From Massilia sp. PAMC28688 (GTDB lineage: Bacteria > Pseudomonadota > Gammaproteobacteria > Burkholderiales > Burkholderiaceae_D), in contig NZ_CP080378.1 in NCBI RefSeq assembly GCF_019443445.1, forward strand, positions 5,270,001 through 5,334,000: 64,000 nt of DNA. Reading direction: 5' to 3'. Position 1 is the first letter of the stretch; each line of letters opens with the position of its first letter. A program made the position numbers and the translations under genes. The notes under the pieces were generated by a model. It saw only the letters and a program-made list of their open reading frames with translations. It was not told the origin of the DNA and did no database searches. Positions 38,338 through 56,661 of this stretch are shown here, in pieces.

Positions 38338-39243
38338 TCAAGGAGACCAAGGTGGTGGGACCGTGTAGCTCCATTGTGCCGGAGCGAAGGTGGCAGGCGC
38401 GGTGATGGTCGGGGAACCGGACAGGGTGCTGTACGCGGCCCGCATGACGGCCCAGTCTGCGGGGCCCGACTCCCACACCTCATTGCCGCCGCTGGACATG
38501 ATGAGGTTGGTGGTAATGTTGCCCTGAGAGCGCCACCACGTTGACCCATCCCTGCTCGACGTGTGCGACTGGCAATTGCGCCAGCCGGCGTTGGCCGCAT
38601 CGCCCGTGCATGCCGCCTGGGTCGCATACATGACGGGCGCCAGCGTGAAATAGCCGCCGTCGCAGCAGTACTCGTCCGGCAGGCCGAACAGGCCGTGGCC
38701 GGTCTCATGCACGATGGTGCGGAAACTGGTTGGCTCCGCCGTGGCACGCCCCCCTCCGCCGCAGTCGCGCAGTTCGTTCTTGTGAATCAGGATGATCTGG
38801 TCGGCAAATGCGCCATCGGTGTTGACCTGGGAGGGCCAGCTCACGGTGGGACACTGGAACTTGCCGTCAGGCGTCAACGGTCGCTCGGTAACGGTGCCCG
38901 ATGCTGTCATGTAGAAGTAGTTAAATCGTCCCCAGGCATTAAAGTAGGCGCGATTTTGCCAGTACGCGTTTTCGATCACGCTGGCCATGTCGTTGACAAA
39001 GGCCTGGCGATTGGCCAGTACGCTCATGTCGCCATAGGCAGTATCGGGCACGAACAGGACGTTAAAGGCTTTGTCGCGGTCCGTTTGCAGGACGTACATG
39101 TCAAAGACGGTGGTGCCCGAGGCGGGCGGGTCGTCCGGGTCGACAGTCTTCGTGATCTTGCAGCTTACGAGAAGACTGGCGCCCAGTAACAGCAGGCAGA
39201 GTTTGAAGGCATTGGGAGCATGTGAAACGATGTGCCGGAACAT
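38338..39243 (-). CDS. Zinc metallopeptidase-like lipoprotein (HExxH, M64-like)
   Basis: 301 residues with a lipobox (LLGASLLVSC near residue 28). FNVLFVPDTAYGD and FVNDMASVIENAYWQNRAYF precede IVHETGHGLFGLPDEYCCDG near residue 175-192. That carries HExxH plus a downstream Asp-Glu, like the M64 (IgA peptidase) or related secreted zinc proteases. Six cysteines lie around the active site, consistent with a disulfide-rich exported enzyme. The first gene of a two-gene unit; the substrate is unknown. Confidence 0.75.
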   Translation of the reverse strand: MFRHIVSHAPNAFKLCLLLLGASLLVSCKITKTVDPDDPPASGTTVFDMYVLQTDRDKAFNVLFVPDTAYGDMSVLANRQAFVNDMASVIENAYWQNRAYFNAWGRFNYFYMTASGTVTERPLTPDGKFQCPTVSWPSQVNTDGAFADQIILIHKNELRDCGGGGRATAEPTSFRTIVHETGHGLFGLPDEYCCDGGYFTLAPVMYATQAACTGDAANAGWRNCQSHTSSRDGSTWWRSQGNITTNLIMSSGGNEVWESGPADWAVMRAAYSTLSGSPTITAPATFAPAQWSYTVPPPWSP

Positions 39244-39587: not shown

Positions 39588-40103
39588 TCAAGCACCGGAG
39601 AATGCCCATAGCCGCGGGTAGCGAGCGGCCAGCTCGTGCTCGTCTTCGTTCCAAGGCTCCCCCGTCAACTCGCTGCTTGCCGTCGGGGTGTCACCCGGGA
39701 AGTCGTGAGCGGACTTGCCCAGCTTTTGCTCCCACGCCTGGGAAGCGGCATAGGCAAATTCTTCAAACTGGGCATCGCCATCCTTGTCAGCGAGCACATC
39801 GGCCAGGCTGTCGGGGTCCCTTAGCGCCGACTCGAACACTTCCTGGCCCTTCGATACCAGCCAGGCCCTGAAATCGGTAAAACCATCATCCGAGCAGCCG
39901 CCGCCAATCACATAGGCCGCTCCCCACAGATTCCAGTCATACGCCCGTGCCATATGCTCGCGGAAAATCCTGTCAAATTCCACGATCTCCGCTGGCGCGA
40001 GTGCCATGAGCTGTTCCCGGAGCACACGGATATGCGTGGCCGGGTCCGCACCGGCGGCGGCGCGAGACACGGCCAGGATGTGCCAGAAACTGGAAACGTC
40101 CAC
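39588..40103 (-). CDS. DUF4240 protein, candidate immunity gene
   Basis: 171 residues. FWHILAVSRAAAG at the start, then LREQLMALAPAEIVEFDRIF, LWGAAYVIGGGCSDDGFTDF and FRAWLVSKGQEVFESALRDP are the DUF4240 signature. DUF4240 proteins are small, cytosolic and of unknown function. It starts 2 bp after the LRR gene stop and closes an operon whose third gene from the end encodes an RHS nuclease toxin. Position at the end of such a cassette suggests an immunity or antitoxin role, which is inferred. Confidence 0.8.
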   Translation of the reverse strand: MDVSSFWHILAVSRAAAGADPATHIRVLREQLMALAPAEIVEFDRIFREHMARAYDWNLWGAAYVIGGGCSDDGFTDFRAWLVSKGQEVFESALRDPDSLADVLADKDGDAQFEEFAYAASQAWEQKLGKSAHDFPGDTPTASSELTGEPWNEDEHELAARYPRLWAFSGA

Positions 40104-40105
40104 GT

Positions 40106-41062
40106 CTACTCCAGATCCATGGTGAAGGCGGGAACCTTTTTGCTACCGATGCGCACGAAGTTGGACACCTTCCGGCCTGCGGCCTGTGCAAGGGCGAGAA
40201 TGGCGTCGTCACTCACCGCGTACCCTTCGTGCGTTCCCAGGGCAACGCTCTTGAGTGCGGGGAGGCTGAACAGCAACGCCCAGTCCACTTCCTGCACATT
40301 GCTCACCAGCAGACTTTCAAGTTTATGCAGCTTGCCCAGCCAAGCGAGGTTGTCCACCTTCTCCGGCATCTTTTCCAGGCGCACCTCGCGCAGGCCCGGG
40401 ATGCCTCCCAGGATCGCCACGTCGTCGAATCTGGGGCATTTTGTCATTGAAATGGACTGCAAACCGGGGTGACCTGCCAAGGCGCTGAAGTCCTTCAGTT
40501 TCGCCAGCGAAAACAGCGACAGCCGCGTCAGTGACGGGCAACCCTGCAATCCATCGAGCGATGCTACCGGGCCTTGCCGCAGATCCAGCGCCTGCAAACT
40601 GCCCAGCGTGGAGAATGCCAGACAGTCAGGACGCGACCAGGAACGCAAAATGAGCTCGCGCAGCTTCGGCAGGGAAAACAGGCCGTGATTGGCGGACTTG
40701 GCGTCATAAGCCTTGTCCCACGACAGCTGGCACTTTTCCAGCCTGATCAGCGTGCCAAACTGCGGCACGGGCTTGGCTGAGGTGACATCGTCCTGCAATT
40801 CCACCAAGTTGACCAGCTTGTCGATCCCGGCAAGGGAAGCGAGCCCGCCGGTGACGAGCAAGCGCGCCGGCCCGCCAGGCAGGCACTGCTCCAGAAAATC
40901 CAGGTTCGGCATATCGCCGGCTGAAATGACCAGCCGGTCAAACTCGCCCTTGCCGATTTCACGCTCGACGTCGCCCAGGTCTGCATCAGGCGCGACGCAG
41001 ACCGTCAGGTTTCGAAATCCCGCGACCGGAAACGCGGCGGTGCCATATCTGAACCAGGACAT
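40106..41062 (-). CDS. Leucine-rich repeat protein, candidate immunity protein for the RHS nuclease
   Basis: 318 residues from ATG 41062 (GAGG 6 bases upstream; a TTG precedes it). No signal peptide is present. Irregular leucine-rich repeats run through most of the protein (LPKLRELILRSW, LGSLQALDLRQG, CPSLTRLSLFSLAKLKDFSA, IPGLREVRLEKM, LHKLESLLVSNV). The gene begins 21 bp after the RHS stop and 2 bp before the next gene. A cytosolic repeat protein right behind a polymorphic toxin is the usual place for its inhibitor, so I propose it binds the GIY-YIG domain; this is not shown by the sequence. Confidence 0.75.
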   Translation of the reverse strand: MSWFRYGTAAFPVAGFRNLTVCVAPDADLGDVEREIGKGEFDRLVISAGDMPNLDFLEQCLPGGPARLLVTGGLASLAGIDKLVNLVELQDDVTSAKPVPQFGTLIRLEKCQLSWDKAYDAKSANHGLFSLPKLRELILRSWSRPDCLAFSTLGSLQALDLRQGPVASLDGLQGCPSLTRLSLFSLAKLKDFSALAGHPGLQSISMTKCPRFDDVAILGGIPGLREVRLEKMPEKVDNLAWLGKLHKLESLLVSNVQEVDWALLFSLPALKSVALGTHEGYAVSDDAILALAQAAGRKVSNFVRIGSKKVPAFTMDLE

Positions 41063-41083
41063 CAATACCTCAGTTTCACTTGA

Positions 41084-44000
41084 TTATTTGCACAGTGCCT
41101 TGATCGCCTGCAGCGGCTTGAACATGCGGCCAGTCGGGCTGACCGCGCGCTTTTGATTGATCAAGTCACCTTCTGCCGAAATTGCATCCATCACCATCTG
41201 CTCTGCAATACGCAGAATATCCTTGCCGGCCTGCCCACCGCCCAGCAGAGGCACAGCCACTTTCGCAAGCAGCGTGAAGCCTTTTTTCGCTTCGTCGCGC
41301 GCGTGCTCCGTGATGCGCCTGGCGATGTCGTTGGACTGGCCGACATAGTACAGGCCCGCGCCGTTGGTCAGCACATAAATACCATACTTGACGCCCTCTT
41401 CCGCCGCCGCGCCGACCAGTTCGCAGCCAATATTGCGCAGGACTGCTTTGCCCGTATTGACGGTAATCGTACGCTGGGCCGCGCTGATATTCATGCTGGC
41501 AGACAGTTCCGGCAGCGTGGTGGCGCCGCTCGGATCCGTGTTGCCAAGCGGGTCGGCATCACCGTACAGATACTTGTGCAGCGTGACCGGCTGCTGCAGA
41601 TGCCCGGCAAATCGGTCCTGCGACACAAAGCGGCCCAGCGCAGGATCATAGTAGCGCGCCCGATTGTACTGCAATGATGTGGCGTCATCGAAGGCTTCGC
41701 CGGTGTAACGGTGGGCATTGCCGGTGCTGCCCGTGCGGCTGTCGATATTGCCGAAAGCATCGTACACATAAGTATCGGTCGTGTTCCCGGCCGCGTCGGT
41801 CAGGGCGTTGACGCTTCCCTGGCCATCTGCGTGGTAGTAGCTGCTGCCTTGTGCGCGATTCTGGGAAATGAGCTGGTGGCCGCGAACATACAGGGTGTGC
41901 GCCTTGGCCGAACCCGTGACGACTTCTTCCTGCACCACCTGGGCATAAGGGAACGTGTCGTCGACCAGGTAGTTGGTGACGACCGTCGTGCCGCCCTCGC
42001 CTGGCGTGCGCGCTGCCACCCGGTTGCCAAGCGCGTCGTAGGTATACTTGACGACGACGGCCGCGGTGGGCTCAGTGGCACCCTGCTTGACTTCGATCAG
42101 GCGGTTATCGCTGTCCCACTGATAGAAAGTGGCATTGTTGCCGGTCGACTTGCTCTTCAGATTGCCATTGTCATCCCATGTATAGGCGATCTCGAAAGCC
42201 GGCCCGGCCACCGGCGAGACGGTTTCCGTTTTCAGGCGGTCGCGGTTGTCGTACGCGTAGGCGGTCGTGCTTACCCCAGCCTCGGTGGTGACGGTTTTCA
42301 GCGTCCGGTTGCCAGCCTTGTCATAGGCGTACTCGGTCTTGCGCACGCCGGCCCCGCCACGGGCGGTCGACTGTTCCGAGATCAGGCGGCCGGCAGCGTC
42401 ATGAACATAGGCGAGCGAACGTGCGGGATTGCCGGCCACACCATTGCTGAAGGTGCTCGCTGCATCGAGTTCCACCGTCGCGCTGCGCTTGCCATCCGGG
42501 CGCACGCTGTGCACCACGCCAGTGACCACACTGCCATCGGCACGGGTGTGCACCAGTTCCAGCAGGCGGCCGTTGGCACCGTGGCGCTGGCGGGCCGTGA
42601 CGCCATTGGGCATCAGGGTGGCGACCAGGCGGCCGGCGTCGTCGTAGGTGTAGGTGGTGACGCGGCCATCGATCGCGGTGACCGATTCCATGCGCCCGCC
42701 GGCGTCGTAGGCATAGCGGACGGTACCGGCAGCCGTACTGCGTTCGACGATGTTGCCGGCCGCGTCGTACTTGTAAGCCAGATAGCTGCCGTCGGGATTG
42801 AGCTGGCGCACCAGCCTGTCGTGCGCATCGTAGGTATAGCTCGTTTTGCCATTCTGTAGCGATCCGCCAGTGACCGTCCGGCTTGCCACCATGCCGGCCG
42901 GGGTGGTGGCGATGGCGATCGCGGCGCCATCCGGGCGTACCACCTGGCTCAGCCTGCCGGCATTGGAATACCCGTAGCGCGTGGTCAGGCCGGCGAAGTC
43001 CGCCCATGCCACCAGACGGCCTGCGGCATCGTACGCAAAGCTTTCAAAGCGGTCATCAGGCAAGGTGCGGCGGGTGACCCGGTTGCTGGCATCATAGGTC
43101 CAGCGGGTGATGCGGCCCTCGGCGTCCAGCTGCGAAATACGATTGCCTTGCAGGTCGTAGCCGTATACGGTTTCCTGGTTGCTTGCACCGTTGGTCTCTG
43201 TCACCTTGGCCAGGCGTCCTGCGCCGTCATAGCCATAGGTACGGCGGTTGCCGCCGAAATCGGTTTCCGAATTCTTGGTGCCATCCATGTTCCAGACGAT
43301 GGCCGCAGTGCGCCCGTCTGGCGCCGTGGTCAGCTCCAGCCGGTTCAGTGCGTCGTACTTATACAGCGTGACGTGGTTGTTCGGATCGGTGGCGCTGGTC
43401 TGGTTGCCGTTTTCATCGTAGGTGTAGCGCGTGGTCTTCTGCAGGGGATCGGTCACCGACAGCAGCCGCCCGGCTGCGTCGTAGCCGTAGGTAGTGCGCT
43501 TGCCCCTGGCATCGATATCGGCACTGATGCGACCGACAGCATCATATTCGCGGCCGGTCACGGTGCCGTCAGGCCGCGTGGTCGTGACCAGCCGGTTCAG
43601 CGCGTCGTACGCGAAGCGGGTGGTGCGACCCTGGCGGTCAACGAGTGCGGTATGGTTGTTTTCCGCATCGTAGCTCAGCAGTTCGCTGGTGCCGTCCGGG
43701 AAGACCATCTTGGCCAGGCGGCCGCGCGTGTTGTACTCGTAGGTGGTGACACGGCCCTGCGGATCGGTACTGCTGGTGACCTGGCCACCGGCGTTGTAGG
43801 TGAACTTGCTGACAAAGCCCAGTGGATCGGTCTCTTCCAGAATCCGGCCTTCGGCGTCCAGCGTGAGCTTGACCGTGACTGTCTGGTTGACACCATTGAC
43901 GGCATGCGTCCATGACCGGCTGATTTGCCTTCCGTTGGCATCGTAAGCATAGTGAATGACGCGGCCGGCGGCATCGGTCTCGCTGGTCTTGTTGCCGCGC

Positions 44001-47000
44001 GTATCATAGGTATAGGTGGTGACGCGCCCATTCAGATTCACCGACGTGGCGCGGCCAGCACTGTCCACACCGACGGCACTGTTGCGGCCCAACGGTTCAC
44101 TGATGCTGACGCTGCCGTTCATGGCATAGCCGAGCATGGTCACGTTGCTGCGCGCGTCGCTGATCGATTTCAGGCGATCACCGGCTTCCACGTCATAGTT
44201 ATAGGTGACCGTGTTGCCGAGTTCATCGGTTTCGGTCAGGGGCTTGACGATTTTCGGATGGTAGGTGGCCGTGGCCGACTTGCCCTCCGGGTTGACCGTG
44301 GAAATCAGGTTACCCACCGCGTCATAGACATACGTCGTCTTGTTGTTGAGCGCGTCAATCTTCTCGGTGATGTTGCCCGACTGGTCGTAAGCGTAGGTGG
44401 TCACATTGCCCAGGCGATCCTTGATGATTTCCTTGCTGTTGGCCGTGTCGTGGGTCATTTCGATCGCCTTGCCTTCAGCGTCGTACATCGCCACCAGGCG
44501 GCCTTCGTCATCGTAGACATAGCGCGCGGCCAGGGTGCCCGTCGGGTCGGTGTAGTCGGTCAGCCCGTGGCCGCGGTTGTAGTTGAACCTGGAAACGGCC
44601 AGGGTACGATCGGTCACGCTGATGAGGTCACCGGCGGCGCTGTACGCATACTTGATCTGCTTGCCGGCGGGATCGGTGATGGCGGTGATGCGGCCGGCGA
44701 CGTCGCGCGCGAAGGCAACAGACTGCCCATTGCTGTGGACAATGCCATTGGCGCCGTAGCTCAGGGAGTTTCCCGATGGATCCACCACCCGCGTAATGCC
44801 GATGCCATCGGTAAGGTAATAGACATAGCTATCCTGCGTGGTCAGCTTGAATTGCTTGGGATTCCACGGCTCGAGGTTATCCATGTCGTACAGATAGCCG
44901 CCACGCGCGTCGACGAACGGGACATTGACAATCTCGAGCTTGCTCGTGGTACCGGGCAATGCTGTGAACTTGATGTCGACCGGAGGCACCGAGGCAAATG
45001 CGCACTCCTGCGAATTGGCGGCTACGAAACGGTCCACTTTGCCATCAGGCATTGTGATATTGATTTTGCGCTTGCCAGCCGGGACCACGCACAAGAGGAA
45101 CTGGCGCTGCTGAATTTGCCAGTCCAGGCCGAGCACCATGTTCTTGCGCACCTGAACGCTCTGGTAATCCACAGTCCAGCCAAAGCCGAAATCGAGGTTT
45201 TGTTCCTTGGTGCGGGTGTCGTAGGTACGCGTGACACGAATGGGAATGCCGGACGCTTCCACATTCAGGTCTTCAAACGTCATGGCAAACTGGCCGACCT
45301 TCAGGTCGCGATAGATATCGACCGTGCGAAAGCTCGACTGGCGGTTGCCATTGACGTCGGTGACCATCAATACAAGTTCATAGATACCGTTAGCCAGCTG
45401 GGTCGGATCAAGCTTGCCGAGAACGCCGCCGTTGACGCTCGACGTGCCGCGCGCGATTTCGCTCCATGCCGTGCTGCCCGCAGGGCGCAGCAGCAGCTGG
45501 TAGTACGCAAAGTTGGCGGCCGTTGCAGTGCCGAGCACATCTACCGTCGCCGTCAGTTCGGCGTCGTCTTCCGGGGAAGTGATCAGCGCGACCGGATTGG
45601 TGCTGTCGGCAAGGTCGCGTACGCTGAAGGTACCAGTGCGGGTGATGGTACGAACCGCATCCTTGACGCTCAGGGTGATGTGATGGGCGCCCCCCGTGCT
45701 GGCCACGACCGACGCCTGGCCCGAAGCGTCGAGCACCACTGGCTGGCCGTCCACGTTCAGCACGATCGTGCGCGCGCCGCTGCCACCATTGGCCACGACA
45801 GAAATGCTGACACTTTCGCCGAGATTGACGACTGCCGGTGTCACGACCAGGCTCGCAGTTAGTTCCAGCGCCTCGGCGCTCACCGTCAGCTGGTAACGCT
45901 GCTCGGCATACGCCCTGCCGTTATCGGCACGCACCGTCACGCTATAGCTGCCGCTGACGGGCTTGAGCCAGGAGACCACACCGCTGTCGCTGATGGTCAT
46001 GCCGGTCGGCGCCCCAATCAGGCTGTAGGCCAGGGTGGCGCCCTGCGGATCGCTGGCGATGACGGGGTAGGCGTAACCCTGGCCGGCGCCGGCAGCGATG
46101 ACCGGTGCGCTGGTAATGACCGGCGCGCCCGATACGCCACCCTGGTCAAAACCGGCAGCCGCGGTCAGGTCGGCGGCCATGATCACGGCCACGCTGTCGC
46201 ATGGCTGGCCGTCCTGGGCTTGCGCCAGACGGGCCAGGAACAGGCCATTGACCGTCTCGGCCTGTCCGGGGAAGAAGCTCCAGCGCGTGGTGCTGGCCGT
46301 TTCGTCGAGCATCGCGGCCAGGATGGCGTCCATGGACTGCCCTGCCTGCGCAACCGGTGCCAGGGTGGCAGCCGACAGTCTGGGCGAGGCCAGCGCCAGC
46401 CAGCCCATCCCGGCGGCCGGGTACAGCGCCGCAGTGGCATTGCCCGCGTCACCGCTCAGGCGATAGCTGCCCGCGCCCGATACCAGGTCTTCCGTGGCGA
46501 TGCCCTGCCCGGTCCAGCCGCCCAATGTGAGCGGCGTCTTTGCCACCAGCGCGCGCAGGCCGCGTGCGACGTCACTTTCCAGGTCCAGCGCAGCGCTGGC
46601 CGACAATGTCAGCTGTGGCAGCACCGCCGTGCCATTGCTGCGCGTGACAGCATAAATGGTCTGGCCTGCTGCGGCGGCCGCTGCCAGCGACCGCACGGGC
46701 GAGACGGCCATGCCGGGCTGGCTGGCGCTGGTAAACAGGTGCGCCAGCACTTGATGCGAGTAAGCTGCATTGCGTTCGTTGGCCTGGCGCAGATAGGCGC
46801 TGCTATCCATGCCGTCGTCGAGCGACACCACCGCGCTGCTGGCGCGGTCGATATCAAGCGCCACGCCAGGGAAGCTGACGTTGTTGACGATGCCGAGCAC
46901 CATTTCGGGCTGAACCTGGGCCACCGCCCGGCCAAACGATGGCAGGCGCTGTTCGAGCACGCCGGCGGCGCGCTGGAACACGGCGCTGTTGGCGTCGGCC

Positions 47001-49159
47001 GTGGCAAAGTAGCCAAGTGCGCTTTGATACAGCAGTTCACCGGCGACATCGTCGCGGCTGAGAGACGCGGTCTGGCCGGCCGACAGCTTGGCATGCAGCG
47101 AATTCATTCTCGCCTTCATGGCGTTCAGATGGCCGGCGCCGATTCCCTGGGCGTTGACCGCCACCGCGTGATAGTCGCCGGCGTGCGCGAGGAAGGTAGC
47201 GCTGGTCCAGTTACCGGCAGAGGGATCAAAGGCGCCGCTTTCAGCGACCAGTTCACTGCCCAGTACAAAGCTGCCACCGCTCGACACGAGCGCGCCGTCA
47301 AGGCGGATTTCAGCCTTCACGCGAATCAGGTAACCGGGAATTTGCGGTGCGAATTCGGATGCCTGCACAGGGCTGTCGTCGGCATGCTCTTGCGGCAGGT
47401 ACAGTGCCAGCGTGCGCGCGTCAGCCTCGGTGGCAGGCACAAAGCTCAATGTCAGACGTTTGTCTGCAACGGCCGACAGATCGGCTTGAAATGCAGCGAC
47501 GCTGTTTTCCTGGCCCTGCTCGGCGCTGTTGGCGTACAGGTTCAGCTTGAACTTCCAGCGCAGCGTGTCGGGCATGACGTTGGCCACGGCCCCCGTGACC
47601 ACTACCTTGTACGGCAACGAGCCCATGAGGATGCTGTAGTTTTCCGCGGCGATGGCAGAGCTGCCCAGGACCTGGCCGACGGTCAGGTCGGCGCCCTGCT
47701 GCGCCAGGAAGGTGTCGAGCTGGCTCTTGTAGGCGGTATAGCCTTGCTGCAGATTGACCAGGTTCAGGTTGCGCGCATAATCGGGGGTGCAGACCGCGCC
47801 CTGTCTGGCCGAGTCGAACAGGCCCGCTTCGTTCAGGCTGACGGCGCCGCGCAGGTCGATGCCCGTCTGCTGCTTCATCTGCTTGAAGCTCGCGTCCAGC
47901 GACACCCAGGTGCGGGCCGCGCGGTTGACGGCGCCGCGGCTGGGCGAGTAGTCCACGAACGCTTCCACCCACACGTGTTCCATCTGGATCGCGCCGCCGC
48001 TGCTGCGGTTCGGGATGCCGGCCTGGGTCAGCAGCGCCAGCGCTGCACTGGCGCTGTCCACGCCCAGCCAGTTCTGGGCCCGTGCCGCTGGCACTTCGAT
48101 GGTGCCGTATGCGTAGCGGGCAGGGATTTTCGCGGCGCGCAGCAGCGCCACCAGCAAACTGGCGGTATCGACATCGTTACCACGGCGCGCCTTGAGCGTC
48201 GCGGCCGCGCCCTGCATGGCGCCAAAGCCGGGCGCAAAGCGGATCTGGTTGCGCACCCAGTTGTTGATCGCGACCGGGTTGTTGCCCAGGCTGGCCGCCA
48301 GGGCCACGATCTCCGGTGTGGCCGGCGCGTCTGCGGTTGCGGCCAGGTCGGCCGGCTGCACCGCGTCCGGCAAAATGGCGTCCGGCAGCTCAATGCCGGA
48401 GAGGGTGCCACTTGAGGCGAGCTGGATCGAGCGCGGGAAGCGCGCTTCGTGCTCACGCTCGGTCTGCGCCACCTTGGGCGCAGTCTTGTGTCCCTGCCCC
48501 CAGGGCAGCTGCTCCTTGCCATGCGTCTGCTGGCCAGACACGCTTGGATACTGGTCGAGCCATTTGGCCAGCTTGACCAGCGCGTCGCGCGTGGCTCCCT
48601 TGCCGGCCGCCGCTGCGTCGAGCGCAGCCATCACCTGCCTGAGACTTGCGCTGCGTTCGCTGAACTGGTTCGATGCGGCGCTATTGCGCTGGATGATTTC
48701 TTCCGGCACGCCGTTGGCGCGCAGGTGGGCGGCGGTGGCGGCAAAGCCTGCGGCCATGTCACCTTCCTGCTTGAGCACTGCAGCGTACTGCACGCGCAGG
48801 GCTTTGGCCATGGCCAGCGCGTCGCCCTTGCCGCCGCGCAGTCCGGCCTGCGCCTTGCGCGCCATTTCGTGCAGGTCGCCGATGGCCTCGCCATAGGTCG
48901 CTGGCTTGATGCGCGCTGCAGCTGCGGCCGGCGTGGCGTGAAGCACGCGTTTCGCGCCTTTGCCGGTCGGGATGCCGTTGGCATCGATTACCGGCAGGCT
49001 GCGTGCGGCCGGTGCCTGCAGCGGCACCAGCGGCGCATCGCCGACCATGGCCGGCGCACGGGTCTGGGCCATGGCGGCCGTTGGCGACAGCGTGCCGGCG
49101 ACGAGGGTGGCGATCAGGACGGAAGATACGGCGCGCTGCAGGGTGTGATTGAAAAACAT
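41084..49159 (-). CDS. Sec-exported RHS-repeat polymorphic toxin with a C-terminal GIY-YIG nuclease
   Basis: 2691 residues from ATG 49159, with a signal peptide (VSSVLIATLVAGTLSPTAAMA). Domains in order: a helical region, a transglutaminase-like domain near 300-420 (NDVDTASLLVALLRAAKIPA, HVWVEAFVDY) without its usual Cys, Ig/cadherin-like domains near 1010-1275, and RHS/YD repeats near 1290-2420. The RHS core follows (RARYYDPALGRFVSQD near 2503), then the boundary NTDPSG near 2543. The tail has GIYVLTNGAGLYYVG near 2590, Arg in IARRITEH, Glu in RIAEQMVMD near 2653 and Asn in LINQK near 2668: the full GIY-YIG catalytic set. RHS shells encase toxic tails for delivery. It follows the giant toroid protein by 86 bp. 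An in-frame start at 49270 lacks a signal peptide. Confidence 0.9.
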   Translation of the reverse strand: MFFNHTLQRAVSSVLIATLVAGTLSPTAAMAQTRAPAMVGDAPLVPLQAPAARSLPVIDANGIPTGKGAKRVLHATPAAAAARIKPATYGEAIGDLHEMARKAQAGLRGGKGDALAMAKALRVQYAAVLKQEGDMAAGFAATAAHLRANGVPEEIIQRNSAASNQFSERSASLRQVMAALDAAAAGKGATRDALVKLAKWLDQYPSVSGQQTHGKEQLPWGQGHKTAPKVAQTEREHEARFPRSIQLASSGTLSGIELPDAILPDAVQPADLAATADAPATPEIVALAASLGNNPVAINNWVRNQIRFAPGFGAMQGAAATLKARRGNDVDTASLLVALLRAAKIPARYAYGTIEVPAARAQNWLGVDSASAALALLTQAGIPNRSSGGAIQMEHVWVEAFVDYSPSRGAVNRAARTWVSLDASFKQMKQQTGIDLRGAVSLNEAGLFDSARQGAVCTPDYARNLNLVNLQQGYTAYKSQLDTFLAQQGADLTVGQVLGSSAIAAENYSILMGSLPYKVVVTGAVANVMPDTLRWKFKLNLYANSAEQGQENSVAAFQADLSAVADKRLTLSFVPATEADARTLALYLPQEHADDSPVQASEFAPQIPGYLIRVKAEIRLDGALVSSGGSFVLGSELVAESGAFDPSAGNWTSATFLAHAGDYHAVAVNAQGIGAGHLNAMKARMNSLHAKLSAGQTASLSRDDVAGELLYQSALGYFATADANSAVFQRAAGVLEQRLPSFGRAVAQVQPEMVLGIVNNVSFPGVALDIDRASSAVVSLDDGMDSSAYLRQANERNAAYSHQVLAHLFTSASQPGMAVSPVRSLAAAAAAGQTIYAVTRSNGTAVLPQLTLSASAALDLESDVARGLRALVAKTPLTLGGWTGQGIATEDLVSGAGSYRLSGDAGNATAALYPAAGMGWLALASPRLSAATLAPVAQAGQSMDAILAAMLDETASTTRWSFFPGQAETVNGLFLARLAQAQDGQPCDSVAVIMAADLTAAAGFDQGGVSGAPVITSAPVIAAGAGQGYAYPVIASDPQGATLAYSLIGAPTGMTISDSGVVSWLKPVSGSYSVTVRADNGRAYAEQRYQLTVSAEALELTASLVVTPAVVNLGESVSISVVANGGSGARTIVLNVDGQPVVLDASGQASVVASTGGAHHITLSVKDAVRTITRTGTFSVRDLADSTNPVALITSPEDDAELTATVDVLGTATAANFAYYQLLLRPAGSTAWSEIARGTSSVNGGVLGKLDPTQLANGIYELVLMVTDVNGNRQSSFRTVDIYRDLKVGQFAMTFEDLNVEASGIPIRVTRTYDTRTKEQNLDFGFGWTVDYQSVQVRKNMVLGLDWQIQQRQFLLCVVPAGKRKINITMPDGKVDRFVAANSQECAFASVPPVDIKFTALPGTTSKLEIVNVPFVDARGGYLYDMDNLEPWNPKQFKLTTQDSYVYYLTDGIGITRVVDPSGNSLSYGANGIVHSNGQSVAFARDVAGRITAITDPAGKQIKYAYSAAGDLISVTDRTLAVSRFNYNRGHGLTDYTDPTGTLAARYVYDDEGRLVAMYDAEGKAIEMTHDTANSKEIIKDRLGNVTTYAYDQSGNITEKIDALNNKTTYVYDAVGNLISTVNPEGKSATATYHPKIVKPLTETDELGNTVTYNYDVEAGDRLKSISDARSNVTMLGYAMNGSVSISEPLGRNSAVGVDSAGRATSVNLNGRVTTYTYDTRGNKTSETDAAGRVIHYAYDANGRQISRSWTHAVNGVNQTVTVKLTLDAEGRILEETDPLGFVSKFTYNAGGQVTSSTDPQGRVTTYEYNTRGRLAKMVFPDGTSELLSYDAENNHTALVDRQGRTTRFAYDALNRLVTTTRPDGTVTGREYDAVGRISADIDARGKRTTYGYDAAGRLLSVTDPLQKTTRYTYDENGNQTSATDPNNHVTLYKYDALNRLELTTAPDGRTAAIVWNMDGTKNSETDFGGNRRTYGYDGAGRLAKVTETNGASNQETVYGYDLQGNRISQLDAEGRITRWTYDASNRVTRRTLPDDRFESFAYDAAGRLVAWADFAGLTTRYGYSNAGRLSQVVRPDGAAIAIATTPAGMVASRTVTGGSLQNGKTSYTYDAHDRLVRQLNPDGSYLAYKYDAAGNIVERSTAAGTVRYAYDAGGRMESVTAIDGRVTTYTYDDAGRLVATLMPNGVTARQRHGANGRLLELVHTRADGSVVTGVVHSVRPDGKRSATVELDAASTFSNGVAGNPARSLAYVHDAAGRLISEQSTARGGAGVRKTEYAYDKAGNRTLKTVTTEAGVSTTAYAYDNRDRLKTETVSPVAGPAFEIAYTWDDNGNLKSKSTGNNATFYQWDSDNRLIEVKQGATEPTAAVVVKYTYDALGNRVAARTPGEGGTTVVTNYLVDDTFPYAQVVQEEVVTGSAKAHTLYVRGHQLISQNRAQGSSYYHADGQGSVNALTDAAGNTTDTYVYDAFGNIDSRTGSTGNAHRYTGEAFDDATSLQYNRARYYDPALGRFVSQDRFAGHLQQPVTLHKYLYGDADPLGNTDPSGATTLPELSASMNISAAQRTITVNTGKAVLRNIGCELVGAAAEEGVKYGIYVLTNGAGLYYVGQSNDIARRITEHARDEAKKGFTLLAKVAVPLLGGGQAGKDILRIAEQMVMDAISAEGDLINQKRAVSPTGRMFKPLQAIKALCK

Positions 49160-49245
49160 GGAATGGTCCAATGTGTGATTCGGGGTGCTGGTTTGTGTAA
49201 GCGGCCAGGGTGAAATGTGCTTTTTCGCCCCGGCCGGCTTCGGTA

Positions 49246-52200
49246 TTACTGCGCGGCGCTCCAGCGCCATTGCGCTTCGCGCAGGATGCGGTCAATGTCC
49301 AGACGCGCCGCCGTCGTATCGACCGCTGACAGGCTCTCGAGCATGTCGGTGACCTGCAGCAGACCCTGGATGGCCGTGTCGTAACCGCTCGCCGTGTTGC
49401 GATTAAAGGCGAGCATGGCAGCGTCGAACTGCGCCAGTGCGCGGTCACGCACCCGGCGATCCGGCGTGCGGGCGATCACCAGGGCGCCAATGGCCGTCTT
49501 GACGTTCACTGCCGTCTGGCTGGCAGGCTTCACGGTGAAACCCTGGGTCAGCGTCGGTCCATATTTAGTCGCCACGCCATTGACCACGGAGCTGACCACC
49601 GTGTCGATGGCATGGGCGCCGGCGGTGGCCGGGGCCCGCAGCGACAGATACAGGTCGGTGTTCTGATCCTTGCCCAGCGTGAAGCGCCACTGTGCACTGT
49701 GGCTGTTGGCATCGTAGCTGCCAGGGGCGCTGGCGTTCAGGTACGCGGCACCGGCCGGCAGGCTGCTGTCGACTGCCAGATCGGTGGCGCCGGCCAGGTT
49801 GCCAATGCTGGTACGCAGGCGAACCATGCCGCCCGGGGTCACAACCTGCGACTGGCCCGGCAGGACGGCCCTGAGCGTGGTACCGAGCACCGGCAGCCAT
49901 TGATCGTGCGCTTCCAGGCTGCGCGCCAGGTCAAAAGCGAACAGCACCGCCTGGCCACTGCCGTAGGCATTGCTGGCAATGGCCACACCGCCCGCTTGCG
50001 GATGGCGGCCGTCAAACACGGCCTGCAGCCTGCTGTCGACCAGTTCGGGCTTCTGCGCGCGGCCTACAGTGTTAAGGCGCTGCGAGGTGTACCACGGACC
50101 GGTCAGCTCGACCGGCAGATCGGTTTCGCCGATCTTGCCCTGGTACTTGACGCCGACGACGGTGTTGAGCACCTTGTTGCGCGAATCATGCACGCCGTCA
50201 AGGATCAGGCCATCGCCGCTGAAGACCGCTTCACGCACTTCCACCGGCAGGTCGTCGTGCAGCTTGTCCTGCTTGCCCGAGATCCAGTAGGTGTTGTACA
50301 GGCCACTGCGCAGTTCACGCCTGAACGCTTCCTCGCTGGTGACGATGGTGTGTGCCATGCCGAGCGTGGTCAGCGCTTCATCAATGGTGCGCGAGCGCTG
50401 GGTTTCGCACACGGGCGGCTGGCCGTTGGGGCCAACAGCATCATGCTCACCATCGTTGCACGACACCAGTACCAGAATCCGGCTGCCGCTGGCAAAGGCC
50501 TGCTTGATATCGAGCTTGACGGCCTGGTCGACCAGCATGAAATCATCCTGGGCCAGCAGCAGTGGCTTGCCGGCAACGGTGGCGGACAGCGCCGCGGTGA
50601 AGCGGGATCCGACAGTACCGGCTCCGATCCAGTTGCGGCCAAATTCATGGCGCGCGCCGGTGGCCACGGTCTGCACCTCGTTCAGCTCGGCCACCACCTG
50701 CTTGCTCGCCATGTCAATGATGCGAATCGACAGCGGCAGGTCGGCCAGCGCGGCGTTGCCGCTGTTGGTGGCGCTCGCTGCCATGGCCAGCGAAGCGCCC
50801 AGCTGGAGCTGCTTGGTGCTCAGGCCCAGGGCGCCGCTCAGGCCCACGCCGCTGGCATCGCTCGATGCGACCGCAAACTGCGTGCTGGCGGCCGCCAGGA
50901 CCTTGCCATCGGCGCCGGTGAACGACAGCGCAGCCATGTAATTGCCTGCCATGCCGGGACGCAGCGGCAAGCTGTAGCCGTAGTCGCGCGACTGGCCCTG
51001 GGCCAGCTGCGCCAGCTTCTCGGTCCTGCTCAGCACAACGTCGCCGGCAGGATTGCGCACCGTGGTCGTCACGCTGGCGTTATTGATATCGCTGTTCTGG
51101 GCGATATTGCTCAGGCGTTCCTTCAGCTGCACGGTGGCGAACGGCTGGTAGACCAGCTTGTCGGCAGCCAGGGTGGCGGTGGCAACCGGGGTGCCGGCCG
51201 CCGCGCCAAGGATCGCGAACTGGGTCTGGGCGGTGCCGATCTGGCGGCCCTGCTCGTCGAGCAGCGTGGCCAGCACGATGTAGCCAGGGCGCTCCGGATA
51301 GGCACCGGTGTTCCAGTAGGCGTCGAGCCTGACGCTGGCGCCGCTCGCCAAGCCATTGAACGGTTCCTCGGCCAGCATCGTGATCAGGGTACGGTCTGGC
51401 GCATACACGCCGAGCGTCACGCGCCCTGCCGTCAGGGTACCGCCGCTATTGGTGACCTGGCCGGTGATGTCGACCATGGTGTGCGCCGGGTAGGCCGGCT
51501 TGTCGGTCGTGACACCCAGGTCCAGGAAGCTCGATGCCTTGACGCTCGGCACATCGATCGGCGCATTCACCATACCGCCCGTGAACGAATTCTTGAACGT
51601 CATATGGGCGTCGGTCGAGACGGCGCGCGTTTCGCCGAGCTGCATGTCGATCAGGCTCAGGTCGTAGCTGAGCGAACGGTCAGCGCTGGTCACACCGGTC
51701 AGCTGCCACTGGTAGGTGGACGAACCGTCGGGATTGGCTGCGGTCGCGGTCGGCACCAGATCAGGATTGCTCATCTTGACGTTGGCCGGGAAGGTCACGC
51801 TCAGGTCGGTGTCGATGCCACCCAGGCGGTTCAATATCACGGGCAGCCAGATCGACACCCAGGTCGTCGCTGCCAGGCGGGTGCCGAACAGCCCATTTTC
51901 GCTGGTCCATGATCCGTCCGCCTGCTGGCGTGCCAGCAGCCACTGCACCGCGCTGCGGATATAAGGGTCGCTCGGCGAGGGATTGAGGTAATCGAGGGCA
52001 TAGCCGACGTGAGCGGTAACGAACGAGTCGCCCGTGTGGTTGGCGGTCACGCCCCAGCTGCCGTCGGCCCGCTGCCGCTGGCGCAAGGTCGCGGCGATGG
52101 CTTTCATTTTCGTTTCCAGCGCGGTGCGGCGCTCGGTGTCGTTGGCGTAGAAGCGTGCCGACTCACCCAGGCCCATCAGCTGGTGGGCCTGCACCAGCGT

Positions 52201-55200
52201 GTCGCTGCTGGTCAGGCTCTGGTTCTGCATGTACACCGTCGCCTTGTCGATCATGTCGGCCAGCTTGGTACGGCGCGCAGCCACGTCAAGTTCCTGCGCC
52301 TGCATTTGCCGCATGCCGATCGCGTTGTAGTTGACCGAGATGATCCGGCCGTCGGCCAGCACCACGTGGCCGGTGCCGACGTTGGTGTTGAGCTTGTCTG
52401 CGCGTTCGCGCAGCAGCGTGTCGCCCTTCCACTTGTCATTGATGCGCCAGGTGCCGCTGGTGGTGCCCAGCATCCAGCCGCCGTCATAGGCAAACAGGTC
52501 GCGCGGATAGCCGTCGAATACGGTGTCGGTGATGACGATATCCACAGTGCGGTCCTCCTTGACGCGGAAAACCTTGCGTGCATAGTACGACAGCACCAGC
52601 AGCTCGCCGCTTGGCGAGAACAGGATGCGGTCCGGATTCTGGAAGACCGGGTTGTGGAGCCACACTTCGGGCACGAACGAGGCATCCAGACGCGTGATGT
52701 TGTTGCCAGCATAGTCGTTCGCATACAAGGTGCCATCGGGCGCATAGGCCAGCATTTCGAGCGAGCCACGGCTGTTGAGCTTGGTCGAGACATTGCCCGT
52801 GCTTAGGCGGAAGACGCCGCTGGTGGTGCACACGAGCATACCGCCGCCGCTGCGCGCCTCCAGCAGACCGCGCGGGTCGCTCAGGCCAGTCCAGCTTTCG
52901 CCGAGGCTGCCGTCGGGCTTGTACTGCTGGACCTTGCCCTGCCCCATCATGGACACGTAGAAATTGCCGGCCTGATCGGTGGCGATGTTGCCGCGGCTTC
53001 GGAACTGCTGCTCGGGCAGATAAGGGGTAACGGGATAGGCTTTGAGCGCGGCAGCAGGTACCTGGGTCAGGGCTGCATGCAGGCCGACCAGGCTCTTCAG
53101 ATTAAGAGCGGTGTGATCCACGGGGTGCGTATAGCCGCCCAGCCATGGGTGCGCCACCGGCCAGCTGCCGTTCGATTGCTGGATGGTCGCGAGGTAGTCG
53201 GCGCCCTTGTTAATTGCGGTAATGCTCGCGGCCTTGTCGGTCCAGGCATCGAGCGACCACATGGCCAGCATGCTGGAGGTCCCCGCATAGCCTGGATGGC
53301 TGTCGAAGAACGCGCCGCTTGCCTGCTGGCGGCTCTTGACGAGGTTGTACAGCGCGCTGCGCTCGGCTGGATTGAAGGTGGCATGCAGGCGATTGGTTTC
53401 GCCGCCCACCAGTGCCTGGGTCTGGATATGGCAGCCGATGCAATTGCCCTGTCGGACCGTCCAGTTCACCGCTTCGCGGTCGTTGTAAGTGACCGATTTT
53501 TGAATTGCCGCCTTGACCAGGGGCGCCAGCGGATCGGACAGGGTGCCATTGACGATGTCGGCGCCATTGAGCTTGATGGTGCCACGTACCGACTGGGTAC
53601 CGGCCGGCACCACCACCTTGCTGGCGGTGTACTTGGCGGTGACCGCATTGCCAACGTACAGGGTCGACGTCAGCTTGCCAAGCGCAGGGTCGGCCGCGCT
53701 CAGCTCGAGCCGGTAGTTACCCCCCTTGGCCGGGGTCCAGTCCGAGAACGCCAGCGTCTCCAGGGCGCTCACGGCAAGCGCCCCACCTGCTGCCTGTTCG
53801 GTATGAACCACGCTGGCGTCGGCCACGTCGATCACCGACAGAATGTACGACTGGGCCGCAATCGGCTGGTTGCCCTTGTTCTGCACCACGGCCGACAGCT
53901 TGACCGGCGTGCTGGTGCCAGACTGCAGCACAGGTGGATTGGCCGTGATGGTGCCGCCGAAAGCGGACTTGCCGGTGACGGCCACCGCGCCCACGCGTTC
54001 TATCAGGAGCACGCCTTGCGGAGTAGCTTGCTGCAGGCTGCCAGCTTCCAGCAAACGTACATGCAGGCTGTAGCTGCCGGGCGGGTGCTGGGCCGAGTTC
54101 CACACCAGGCGCACGACCTGCTGGGCCCCGGCCGCCAGCGTGGTCTGGCCAATCAGATTGCCCTCGGTATCAAATGCCGTACCGGTACCGATCACTTTCT
54201 GATTCTGGTCACGCACCTGCAGCTGGATGACGGCAGTGGCACTGGCGTCGCCCGCGTTGGCAATACTGGTATTGACCGTAATGTCGCTGGCGCTGCCCAC
54301 GCTCGCCGGCGTCACGTCGAGCGTACCAATGGTGAACTGGCCCACGCCTTGCGAGGCGAGCGTGAAGTCCTGCAGCAGCTCGGTCGGACCCGACGCCTGG
54401 AGCGTCACGGCCTGCGAGTTGTAGCCACTGGCACTGGCGCGCAGCGCAAACGTCAAGCCGCTCAGGTTCTCGATCCGGTAGCTGCCGTCGGCCGCCGTGG
54501 TGGCGATGGCAGCGGTGCCCGTCAGCTGGACGCTGGCCCCGGCAATGCCCTCGCCGCTGGCATTGATGACGCGCCCCTTGACGGCACTGCTGGTGCGCTG
54601 CTGAGTCATGCTCACCACGCCGGCGTTCATGATGCTGCCTGCGGGGCCGACGAAGCGCTGGGTCACGCCGTTGTAGCCGGCCAGCGAGAAGGCGGCGCTG
54701 TAGCTGCCGGGATTGAGCGTGATCGAGAACTGGCCATTGCCGTCGCTGCTGGTATTGAAAACCGAGGTGCCGTCGGACAGTTCGACGCTGACGCCAGCCA
54801 GTGGCGCGACAGTACCGGCAGCGACCACCTGGCCCTGATAGCGCACGGTGCCCGATGGCGTTTCGGAAGCTGGATACAGGGCTGGCGAAAAGCTCAGCGC
54901 CTGGCCGGCGGCGATCACCGCGCTGCCCGATACGGTCTGATAACCGGAGGCGCTGGCACTGACCGACACGGTACCCGGCGTCACGCCCACCAGCTCGTAG
55001 CGGCCGGCGGCGTCACTGACAGCGGTGATCGGCGGCACGCCGTCAACGGTGATGGTCACGCCAGCCAGTGGAGCACCGCTGGCCCCAACGGTCACCTGGC
55101 CGCGCACGATGCCGGCGGTGGTGAGCTGGGTCAGGCCGACGGTGCCCGCATCGAGGGTTTGCCCGAGGACGATGCTGGCCGAGGCGATGGCACCGGTGTA

Positions 55201-56235
55201 GCCGGTGCGCGCATAGGTGATGCGATAGCTGCCCGCGGTCAGGTTGGGGACGGAAAACGTACCCTGCACGTCGCTGTTGACGGTACGGCTTTCGGCGCCG
55301 GAGAGGGTGATGGTGACGCCGGCGAGCGGCAGGCCACTGCCCTGATCAATGACGCGGCCCTGCACCACGCCGCCGCCGGTGGGCGGCAGTGACTGCTGGC
55401 CGGAGATGGCCCGCAGCACCAGCGCGGTCAAATAGGGATCCTTGTCCCAGCTGCCATCGGCAGCCTGGCGCGCGAGCAGGAAATTGCGGCCGGCCGTGCG
55501 CACGGCCGCATCTGCGGTAACGGGGGAAACGGCCGCCAGCGACAGCGCTGAAAGATAGGTGTCTTCCTGCCAGCCGCCATCGGCCCCCTGCTGACGCAGC
55601 AGCCAGGAGCTGAGCGAGCGCACCGCGTTGATGCTGGCGCTGTCGGCGGCGGTTTGCAAGGCCAGTAGCGCCATGGCGCTGTTCTGGACCCGGTCCGCAT
55701 CGCTGCGGCCAGTGATTGCGCCGTCGGCATCGAGCTGGGTCAGCAGCCACGCGCGCGCCGAGGTAGCGCTGGCGGCAGCGCCCATACGAGCCTCTGTCAG
55801 GGCCAATACTGCCCAGGCTGTGTCAAGCGCATTGCTGGCATAGCCGGGTGCGCCACCGAAGCCACCATCGCTGTTTTGGCGTTCGATAAGCAGATCGATG
55901 TGGACTGTGATGGCGTTACCCGAACCGGCCAGGGCGATAATCTTGCGCGCCAGGTATTCGGTGTTGTTCTCGGGGTCGGCAAGCATGGCGTTGCCCAGGC
56001 TCGGAGGCGCAGCGGCGAGCAGCTTGAGCGTCTGCCGCACTTCGGCGCGGTTCTGCTGCTTGGTCGCAATCGACTGGTCGGCGCCTTGCACCTCACCGTC
56101 AGCTTGAACCTGGGCCGCAAGCCACGCCAGGCCGCGTGCGATTTCTGGACTTTGCGCCCGCGCGGCAAACAGGACCGACAGCGAGATGGCGAAAAACAGG
56201 ACGCAGCGCGTCACTATGCGTTGAAATTTTTGCAC
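49246..56235 (-). CDS. Giant exported multidomain protein: alpha/alpha toroid, carboxypeptidase-regulatory-like domains, CxxCH, propeller
   Basis: 2329 residues from GTG 56235 (GGAG 5 bases upstream), with a signal peptide (CVLFFAISLSVLFAARAQ). A prenyltransferase/squalene-cyclase-type toroid (about 20-290; QNSDGGFGG, QQGADGGWQED, RQAADGSWDKD) is followed by four carboxypeptidase-regulatory-like beta-sandwiches (290-600) and CARDB-like domains (to 880). CIGCH near residue 930 is a c-type haem motif just before more toroid repeats, then an NHL-like propeller (1075-1310). Further toroid repeats (RADGSWGV, QADGSWTSE) and CARDB-like domains lead to a segment resembling an amidotransferase fold (1910-2110). 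It heads the RHS operon. ATG 56283 is less likely, since its extra residues precede the signal. No function is known to me. Confidence 0.82.
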   Translation of the reverse strand: MQKFQRIVTRCVLFFAISLSVLFAARAQSPEIARGLAWLAAQVQADGEVQGADQSIATKQQNRAEVRQTLKLLAAAPPSLGNAMLADPENNTEYLARKIIALAGSGNAITVHIDLLIERQNSDGGFGGAPGYASNALDTAWAVLALTEARMGAAASATSARAWLLTQLDADGAITGRSDADRVQNSAMALLALQTAADSASINAVRSLSSWLLRQQGADGGWQEDTYLSALSLAAVSPVTADAAVRTAGRNFLLARQAADGSWDKDPYLTALVLRAISGQQSLPPTGGGVVQGRVIDQGSGLPLAGVTITLSGAESRTVNSDVQGTFSVPNLTAGSYRITYARTGYTGAIASASIVLGQTLDAGTVGLTQLTTAGIVRGQVTVGASGAPLAGVTITVDGVPPITAVSDAAGRYELVGVTPGTVSVSASASGYQTVSGSAVIAAGQALSFSPALYPASETPSGTVRYQGQVVAAGTVAPLAGVSVELSDGTSVFNTSSDGNGQFSITLNPGSYSAAFSLAGYNGVTQRFVGPAGSIMNAGVVSMTQQRTSSAVKGRVINASGEGIAGASVQLTGTAAIATTAADGSYRIENLSGLTFALRASASGYNSQAVTLQASGPTELLQDFTLASQGVGQFTIGTLDVTPASVGSASDITVNTSIANAGDASATAVIQLQVRDQNQKVIGTGTAFDTEGNLIGQTTLAAGAQQVVRLVWNSAQHPPGSYSLHVRLLEAGSLQQATPQGVLLIERVGAVAVTGKSAFGGTITANPPVLQSGTSTPVKLSAVVQNKGNQPIAAQSYILSVIDVADASVVHTEQAAGGALAVSALETLAFSDWTPAKGGNYRLELSAADPALGKLTSTLYVGNAVTAKYTASKVVVPAGTQSVRGTIKLNGADIVNGTLSDPLAPLVKAAIQKSVTYNDREAVNWTVRQGNCIGCHIQTQALVGGETNRLHATFNPAERSALYNLVKSRQQASGAFFDSHPGYAGTSSMLAMWSLDAWTDKAASITAINKGADYLATIQQSNGSWPVAHPWLGGYTHPVDHTALNLKSLVGLHAALTQVPAAALKAYPVTPYLPEQQFRSRGNIATDQAGNFYVSMMGQGKVQQYKPDGSLGESWTGLSDPRGLLEARSGGGMLVCTTSGVFRLSTGNVSTKLNSRGSLEMLAYAPDGTLYANDYAGNNITRLDASFVPEVWLHNPVFQNPDRILFSPSGELLVLSYYARKVFRVKEDRTVDIVITDTVFDGYPRDLFAYDGGWMLGTTSGTWRINDKWKGDTLLRERADKLNTNVGTGHVVLADGRIISVNYNAIGMRQMQAQELDVAARRTKLADMIDKATVYMQNQSLTSSDTLVQAHQLMGLGESARFYANDTERRTALETKMKAIAATLRQRQRADGSWGVTANHTGDSFVTAHVGYALDYLNPSPSDPYIRSAVQWLLARQQADGSWTSENGLFGTRLAATTWVSIWLPVILNRLGGIDTDLSVTFPANVKMSNPDLVPTATAANPDGSSTYQWQLTGVTSADRSLSYDLSLIDMQLGETRAVSTDAHMTFKNSFTGGMVNAPIDVPSVKASSFLDLGVTTDKPAYPAHTMVDITGQVTNSGGTLTAGRVTLGVYAPDRTLITMLAEEPFNGLASGASVRLDAYWNTGAYPERPGYIVLATLLDEQGRQIGTAQTQFAILGAAAGTPVATATLAADKLVYQPFATVQLKERLSNIAQNSDINNASVTTTVRNPAGDVVLSRTEKLAQLAQGQSRDYGYSLPLRPGMAGNYMAALSFTGADGKVLAAASTQFAVASSDASGVGLSGALGLSTKQLQLGASLAMAASATNSGNAALADLPLSIRIIDMASKQVVAELNEVQTVATGARHEFGRNWIGAGTVGSRFTAALSATVAGKPLLLAQDDFMLVDQAVKLDIKQAFASGSRILVLVSCNDGEHDAVGPNGQPPVCETQRSRTIDEALTTLGMAHTIVTSEEAFRRELRSGLYNTYWISGKQDKLHDDLPVEVREAVFSGDGLILDGVHDSRNKVLNTVVGVKYQGKIGETDLPVELTGPWYTSQRLNTVGRAQKPELVDSRLQAVFDGRHPQAGGVAIASNAYGSGQAVLFAFDLARSLEAHDQWLPVLGTTLRAVLPGQSQVVTPGGMVRLRTSIGNLAGATDLAVDSSLPAGAAYLNASAPGSYDANSHSAQWRFTLGKDQNTDLYLSLRAPATAGAHAIDTVVSSVVNGVATKYGPTLTQGFTVKPASQTAVNVKTAIGALVIARTPDRRVRDRALAQFDAAMLAFNRNTASGYDTAIQGLLQVTDMLESLSAVDTTAARLDIDRILREAQWRWSAAQ

Positions 56236-56661
56236 AGACACTCCGGGACAACAGGGGTTTTGTTGTCGTCGGAACAGTGGCAAAAACGCCGAGCCTATTC
56301 AAAAGAACAACGTAATGCGGCAATTGTATCAACGAGGAAATATTTCCAGCAATCTATTTTGCGAGGAAAGCAATCTTTTGTATGATATTTACAACTATTG
56401 GATGACAGACGATGACGCGGCCGCTGCTAATGCTTTGTTACTCATGTTCGGGGACCTTGGCGGCTTGCCCAGTTGCGCTCAAAAAGAGAAATTTGCTGGT
56501 AGGGCTAGCTGTGAGCTGTCAATGTACTTTCTCACCGTACACGCGACCGTGACATCACAGCAACTGGCGCGTTAATGATGTAATCTGCAAAATGACAAAT
56601 GCTAAAGCGGCGCAAGGCAAGCAATGGCCCGCTATCTCGCCGAATGAAAGGATTGCTGACA
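56236..56661. other. Divergent regulatory gap between the giant operon and a lipoprotein gene
   Basis: The AT-rich 426 bp must hold the promoter of the nearly 17-kb operon (- strand) and of the lipoprotein gene (+ strand). The GGAG ribosome site of the giant gene is at 56241-56244. An open frame at 56315-56575 has no ribosome site and no recognisable protein character. No repeat or terminator was seen. Confidence 0.5.

Follow-up and report, generated by a model that had tools for sequence, protein, structure and literature searches.

URI and GIY-YIG nuclease domains form one superfamily, and toxins tipped with such domains are the closest described counterparts of the locus analyzed here, which lies in a window of 64,000 nucleotides (the whole stretch of DNA that was analyzed; positions 5,270,001 to 5,334,000 of NZ_CP080378.1) from Massilia sp. 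PAMC28688, whose genome is a single 5.46 Mb contig. The locus very probably encodes an antibacterial RHS polymorphic toxin with a GIY-YIG tail, followed by a leucine-rich repeat (LRR) immunity gene. The comparisons with published systems in this text draw on portions of the articles cited. In Zhang et al. 2012 (PMC3482391), the Tox-URI1 class is characterized by the tail signature Y, YxG, R, [RK]xxE, N, typically by RHS repeats, and by an adjoining immunity gene, for which Table 2 lists Imm14, Imm26, Imm44, and Imm51. The same article has an Imm-LRR row, in which LRR proteins beside toxin genes serve as immunity proteins ('next to T5SS toxins', 'heterogeneous polyimmunity loci'; T5SS, type V secretion system) and for which the table gives no toxin class. 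RHS proteins with GIY-YIG tails are also represented by the PAAR-RhsA-GIY-YIG candidates of Salmonella (PMC10469887, PMC11669294), and TepC/TipC of Yersinia pseudotuberculosis (PMC10833071) combines a DNase toxin with an immunity protein bearing Imm26, one of the classes listed by Zhang et al. for Tox-URI1.

The window locus shares with Tox-URI1 the tail signature, the RHS repeats, and the adjoining candidate immunity gene, but differs in that its partner is an LRR protein instead of one of the four listed classes. It shares with Imm-LRR the LRR protein beside a toxin gene, whereas here the LRR protein is tied to GIY-YIG tails. The Salmonella candidates differ in their delivery by PAAR and the type VI secretion system (T6SS) and in a neighboring gene listed with CdiI, not LRR (PMC10469887), and TepC/TipC differs in its Imm26 immunity and in that RHS is not mentioned in the portion of PMC10833071 compared. 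Among the literature searched for GIY-YIG or Rhs nuclease toxins with LRR immunity, mostly outside subscription papers, only Zhang et al. (PMC3482391) was found. The scaffold is a described polymorphic-toxin architecture and RHS proteins with GIY-YIG tails are already published; the GIY-YIG/LRR toxin–immunity pairing appears unlisted so far, in a comparison with the main article of Zhang et al. The parts of the locus that carry the argument are the following.

41084..49159, minus strand: RHS polymorphic toxin of 2691 residues (Pfam domains; start set via homologs)
41525..41764, minus strand: RHS-associated core, closing the shell (TIGR03696, 65.9 bits)
41087..41524, minus strand: toxin tail of about 146 residues containing the GIY-YIG nuclease domain (PF01541, I-TevI match, invariant residues)
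40106..41062, minus strand: LRR protein of 318 residues, candidate immunity protein (LRR_4, profile, gene order, structure model)
39588..40103, minus strand: DUF4240 protein of 171 residues, probable passenger or immunity to something else (PF14024)

The RHS, LRR, and DUF4240 genes follow one another in this order on the minus strand, with 21 bp between the RHS stop and the LRR ATG (41062) and 2 bp between the LRR stop and the DUF4240 GTG (40103). The mechanically called RHS open reading frame (ORF) spans 41084-49270, and its start was fixed at 49159 (MFFNHTLQRAV...) by the homologs at the Duganella loci L013 and L014. The protein has the layout of RHS/YD polymorphic toxins, in which repeats (PF05593, 415.8 bits in the Pfam scan) lead into the RHS-associated core and then into a variable tail; a relative of the scaffold (L075) bears a different, HINT-bearing tail. 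A preliminary description of this DNA, made from the sequence, had placed the three genes and the two gaps as given here and had claimed a complete, correctly ordered set of GIY-YIG hallmarks in the RHS tail. Both observations hold, and the hallmark residues are invariant among aligned tails; the interval that it delimited, comprising the tail and both downstream genes, covers merely the end of an 8-kb RHS gene.

The PF01541 (GIY-YIG) profile, with a cut-off of 22.6 bits, scored 24.6 bits on the whole RHS protein and 30.1 bits on its last 150 residues. The hallmarks occur in the order G2593-x-Y2595, Y2605-V-G2607, R2615, H2619, E2653, and N2668, and these positions (G-x-Y, Y-V-G, R, H, E, N) did not vary in either of two alignments, one of 9 close tails and one of 7 diverse tails. 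All nine close tails matched PF01541 at an E-value of 0.1 or better. A profile of these nine tails aligned with the I-TevI catalytic domain 1mk0 (E-value 2.8e-4), placing the conserved Arg on the I-TevI Arg, and the 1ln0 chain, in which Ala replaces the aligned Arg, scored below 1mk0 with the same profile. The window tail also contains the whole Tox-URI1 signature (Y2595, Y2605-V-G2607, R2615, R-I-A-E2653, and N2668), and the basic residue ahead of the Glu is shifted or missing in the tails of relatives, as in the K-V-E of Duganella. The tail is basic, with an isoelectric point (pI) of 9.5. Two cysteines, Cys2579 and Cys2690, lie on either side of the GIY-YIG domain; they are unchanged across the nine close tails, but not across the seven diverse tails.

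The LRR protein matched LRR_4 with 32.5 bits (cut-off 27), and its structure model, with a mean predicted local distance difference test score (pLDDT) of 84.4, had the Roco LRR 5il7 as its best Foldseek match (E-value 6.4e-9). It is mildly acidic (pI 6.1), and no signal peptide was evident by eye, so that, as in the Imm-LRR class, an LRR protein predicted to be cytosolic adjoins a toxin gene. Imm14, Imm26, Imm44, and Imm51 were not found in the two downstream genes, where Pfam at E-values up to 1 returned LRR families and DUF4240 only.

The association of the tail with the LRR gene was then read across genomes, with loci found by the tail search alone and the next gene inspected afterwards against an LRR profile built from the window and Duganella-type LRRs. 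Among 294 genomes of the family, the tail search gave six matches, comprising the RHS proteins of the window, of the Duganella genomes G228 and G282, and of G235, in addition to two stand-alone GIY-YIG genes; among 399 genomes of the order it gave two, the window and G506. In the GTDB species collection five loci were returned, namely both Duganella, Photobacterium sp. JCM 19050, a Mucilaginibacter metagenome-assembled genome (MAG), and a stand-alone Ruminococcus gene. The next gene encoded an LRR protein matching the profile in 6/6 further tail-first RHS loci (G228, G282, G235, G506, Photobacterium L052, and Mucilaginibacter L054), a count that excludes the window and G725, a seventh tail/LRR locus reached from the LRR side, as well as G163, G142, and L053, which are stand-alone GIY-YIG genes rather than RHS tails and near which no LRR profile match was found. 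G228 and G282 (L013/L014, again L050/L051) are close relatives with 85% DNA identity, and these two Duganella strains are the nearest loci among named records. The gaps between toxin and LRR gene were 6 bp in G228, 7 in G282, 3 in G235, -4 in G506, 4 in Mucilaginibacter, and 3 in G725, and about 77 bp in Photobacterium, counted to the first standard in-frame start codon.

Seventy RHS loci whose tails are of other kinds served as controls, and an LRR-profile ORF, a GIY-YIG tail, and DUF4240 were each found in 0/70 of them; these controls came from 60 relatives (30 returned loci and 40 picked among the matches listed), and several end at contig ends. The preliminary description had proposed to see whether tail and LRR gene vary together, and the contrast between 6/6 GIY-YIG tails and 0/70 other tails shows a candidate immunity gene that changes with the tail; an LRR gene beside unrelated RHS tails, which it had named beforehand as speaking against it, was looked for and was not seen in these control loci. 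The pair spans beta- and gammaproteobacteria and one Bacteroidota MAG, on different RHS scaffolds: RHS repeats exceeded the Pfam cut-off in Photobacterium (275.5 bits), Mucilaginibacter (33.5 bits), and G506 (254.6 bits), DUF6531 is present in G235, G725, and Photobacterium, and, as regards the tail, P0073-P0075 carry the same family behind yet another N-terminus. Because the tail is accompanied by the LRR gene on several scaffolds and in more than one phylum, the reading of the LRR protein as immunity to the tail is well supported, and gene order strongly supports the predicted pairing.

In the closest relatives the LRR proteins are more diverged (70-87% identity) than the tails (87-93%), as seen for G228/G282 (tail 93% vs LRR 83%), for G235/G725 (92% vs 87%), and, with their pairing assumed from an equal longest contig of 178282 bases, in comparison with P0070/P0009 (90% vs 71% for G228 and 87% vs 70% for G282). 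Among distant pairs, tails were 28-36% and LRRs 22-31% identical. The LRR search in a 74-genome sample of the genus gave 9 places in 8 genomes, of which four adjoin a tail and one is a second copy in G228. In G709, the site occupied by both genes in G235 and G725 has an LRR gene and no RHS gene, which looks like a toxin lost and an immunity gene kept, the direction of change being presumed. Behind the toxin/LRR pair of G228 (L013, 9953-12112) lies an extra stretch of 2.2 kb that is absent in G282 and holds a 324-residue ORF without Pfam match and the second LRR gene.

In a set of 5.8 billion proteins, the window tail region matched itself alone, and the Duganella tail had 8 matches, itself included. 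Neither a plasmid search with three tails, nor a viral contig search with one tail, nor a search of genome contigs with the LRR protein alone gave a match, and PADLOC returned none. With the Photobacterium LRR, a plasmid search returned a single Priestia LRR gene, separated by three genes from an SMI1/KNR4 gene, with no annotated toxin in the surrounding stretch.

We propose that the RHS protein would leave the cytoplasm via Sec, its RHS repeats carrying the C-terminal GIY-YIG nuclease, and that the tail, once inside the cytoplasm of a competitor, would cut nucleic acid, most probably DNA. In the producer, the LRR protein would remain in the cytoplasm and would bind and block the tail in self and kin. 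What is observed directly is the order of the genes, their domains, the intact catalytic residues, and the repeated tail/LRR pairing. Beyond the single locus, we consider it somewhat probable that the LRR proteins form a dedicated immunity family for GIY-YIG tails in proteobacteria and Bacteroidota, that tail and LRR gene travel together among unrelated scaffolds, and that the LRR protein tracks tail variants. LRR immunity, which in the portion of PMC3482391 considered has no named toxin class, would thereby gain a concrete target in GIY-YIG tails. The pair would also offer a natural case of repeat proteins following a changing nuclease, suited to the study of how binding specificity evolves.

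Several observations weigh against this interpretation. The AlphaFold model of the tail, built from three sequences, shows a beta-beta-alpha-beta-alpha order fitting the fold, but its confidence is low (pLDDT 51.6), and its top Foldseek match, 1zg2, which we take to be a GIY-YIG protein, is weak (E-value 0.032); because of this poor model and weak match, the assignment of the tail to GIY-YIG rests on sequence instead of structure. PF01541 falls below its cut-off in three partner tails (G235, 15.7 bits; G725, 15.7; Mucilaginibacter, 16.0), and the G506 tail has no Pfam GIY-YIG match at an E-value of 0.1. These tails are linked to the family by the tail profile (G235, 29.9 bits; G725, 29.0; Mucilaginibacter, 31.9; G506, 63.6) and by aligned residues. 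The Mucilaginibacter locus comes from a MAG, no RHS match lies within 14 kb of the LRR relatives found in G684, G253, and G288, and the LRR proteins of G235 and G725 are basic (pI 9.1 and 8.8), as is the tail. Since LRR repeats are generic, part of the similarity captured by the LRR profile may be repeat-driven. Both the toxicity of the tail and its binding by the LRR protein are predictions, and a Sec-exported RHS protein would still have to cross the remaining membranes.

The role of the second downstream gene has also to be weighed. The DUF4240 protein (PF14024, 143.4 bits, cut-off 27) is strongly acidic (pI 4.5, net charge -16), and inhibitors of nucleases are often acidic. Together with its small size and the 2-bp gap to the LRR gene, this could indicate that DUF4240 is the true immunity protein, with the LRR protein in some other role, or that both are required. 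DUF4240 relatives were detected in 19/294 family genomes and 7/280 order genomes, this genome being counted in both, and in the 24 other genomes (18 family, 6 order) no RHS core, tail, or LRR was found beside DUF4240 in the stretches examined, which were wider for 13 of the 18 family genomes and about 1.5 kb per side for the remaining 11 genomes. Nor did the DNA inspected near the other GIY-YIG/LRR loci contain a DUF4240 match, and in the two Duganella genomes that possess an RHS-GIY-YIG/LRR locus as well as a DUF4240 gene, the two are on separate contigs (G228) or some 630 kb from each other (G282). We therefore regard DUF4240 as very unlikely to be the true immunity protein for the tail and reject it as a second immunity gene or conserved part of the system, because no RHS core, tail, or LRR accompanies it in the stretches examined in those 24 genomes. 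Of the two-gene immunity cassette suggested in the preliminary description, the LRR half is upheld by the 6/6 pairing, while DUF4240, found elsewhere with neither partner, is set aside as probably a bystander and not part of the toxin/LRR pair; judging by its position, it is probably co-transcribed with it.

Its acidity leaves room for a role against another toxin, which leads to a variant in which the LRR protein is immunity to the GIY-YIG tail and DUF4240 is an orphan immunity protein within a small mixed array. The 2-bp gap agrees with this, as does the 2.2-kb difference between G228 and G282, owing to which the 3' side of these loci varies in gene content. The neighborhoods of DUF4240 that were read show no RHS or LRR match, however, no toxin was recognized there in an inspection by eye, and no paper in the literature searched names DUF4240; we hold this variant to be possible but doubtful. 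The strict adjacency of tail and LRR gene would also suit an LRR protein that serves the tail as a chaperone or delivery adaptor and does not inhibit it, yet the LRR gene without RHS gene in G709 and the second LRR gene in G228 both fit protection better and the LRR protein has no evident signal peptide, which makes such a role improbable. That the tail might be an inactive relic is suggested by its lower similarity to Duganella (33-36% identity) relative to the last 110 core residues (50%), but all GIY-YIG hallmark residues are retained in an intact ORF and fast change of the tail is normal for polymorphic toxins of the RHS kind; we give this explanation hardly any credence.

The N-terminal part of the RHS protein and its upstream neighbor bear on how the tail might be exported.

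49064..49159, minus strand: probable Sec signal peptide, about residues 1-32 (sequence read by eye: MFFNHTLQRAVSSVLIATLVAGTLSPTAAMAQ)
47891..48283, minus strand: transglutaminase-like domain, probably inactive (PF01841, Transglut_core, 55.6 bits)
49246..56283, minus strand: large protein encoded immediately upstream of the RHS gene, containing toroid repeats, CarboxypepD_reg, and CARDB

The signal-peptide-like start is followed by the transglutaminase-like domain, a bacterial immunoglobulin (Ig) match below its cut-off, and the RHS repeats. In the transglutaminase-like domain, judged against what we take to be the transglutaminase motif, the Cys position reads Asp (GNDVDTA), with His and Asp retained. 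Zhang et al. (PMC3482391) describe toxins with inactive transglutaminase domains that share the signal peptide, the transglutaminase-like domain minus a catalytic residue, the RHS array, and the variable tail, sometimes with bacterial Ig domains, and class them under the Sec-dependent route; the locus differs in its upstream toroid/CarboxypepD_reg protein, which is unmentioned in the portion of that article compared. Of the 15 scaffold or tail loci examined, 8 have a homolog of this large protein (L013, L014, L075, L076, L077, L078, L080, and L081), and our guess is that it may help export. A VgrG-type protein (Phage_GPD, DUF2345, T6SS_Vgr) is encoded further upstream at 57945-60890 (minus strand), separated from the RHS gene by the gene of the large protein and one or more further ORFs. 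T6SS delivery, hinted at by this neighbor, was rejected as the main route in view of the signal-peptide-like N-terminus and of the lack of a PAAR match in the RHS protein with Pfam at E-values up to 1.

Shorter proteins of about 1040-1105 residues, homologous to the N-terminal part of the RHS protein, are encoded at L078 (2163-6086), L082 (1648-6100), and L079-L081; they have a similar signal-peptide-like start and variable end segments in place of the RHS array. L078 and L082 have a similar small gene downstream, and this arrangement looks like a separate toxin/immunity pair. Elsewhere in the window, 38338-39243 (minus strand) encodes a lipoprotein-like protein without Pfam match, whose HETGHGLFGLPDEY stretch presumably resembles a zinc metalloprotease motif, and 24240-28853 (minus strand) encodes a bacterial alpha-2-macroglobulin-like protein (MG2, A2M_BRD, A2M).

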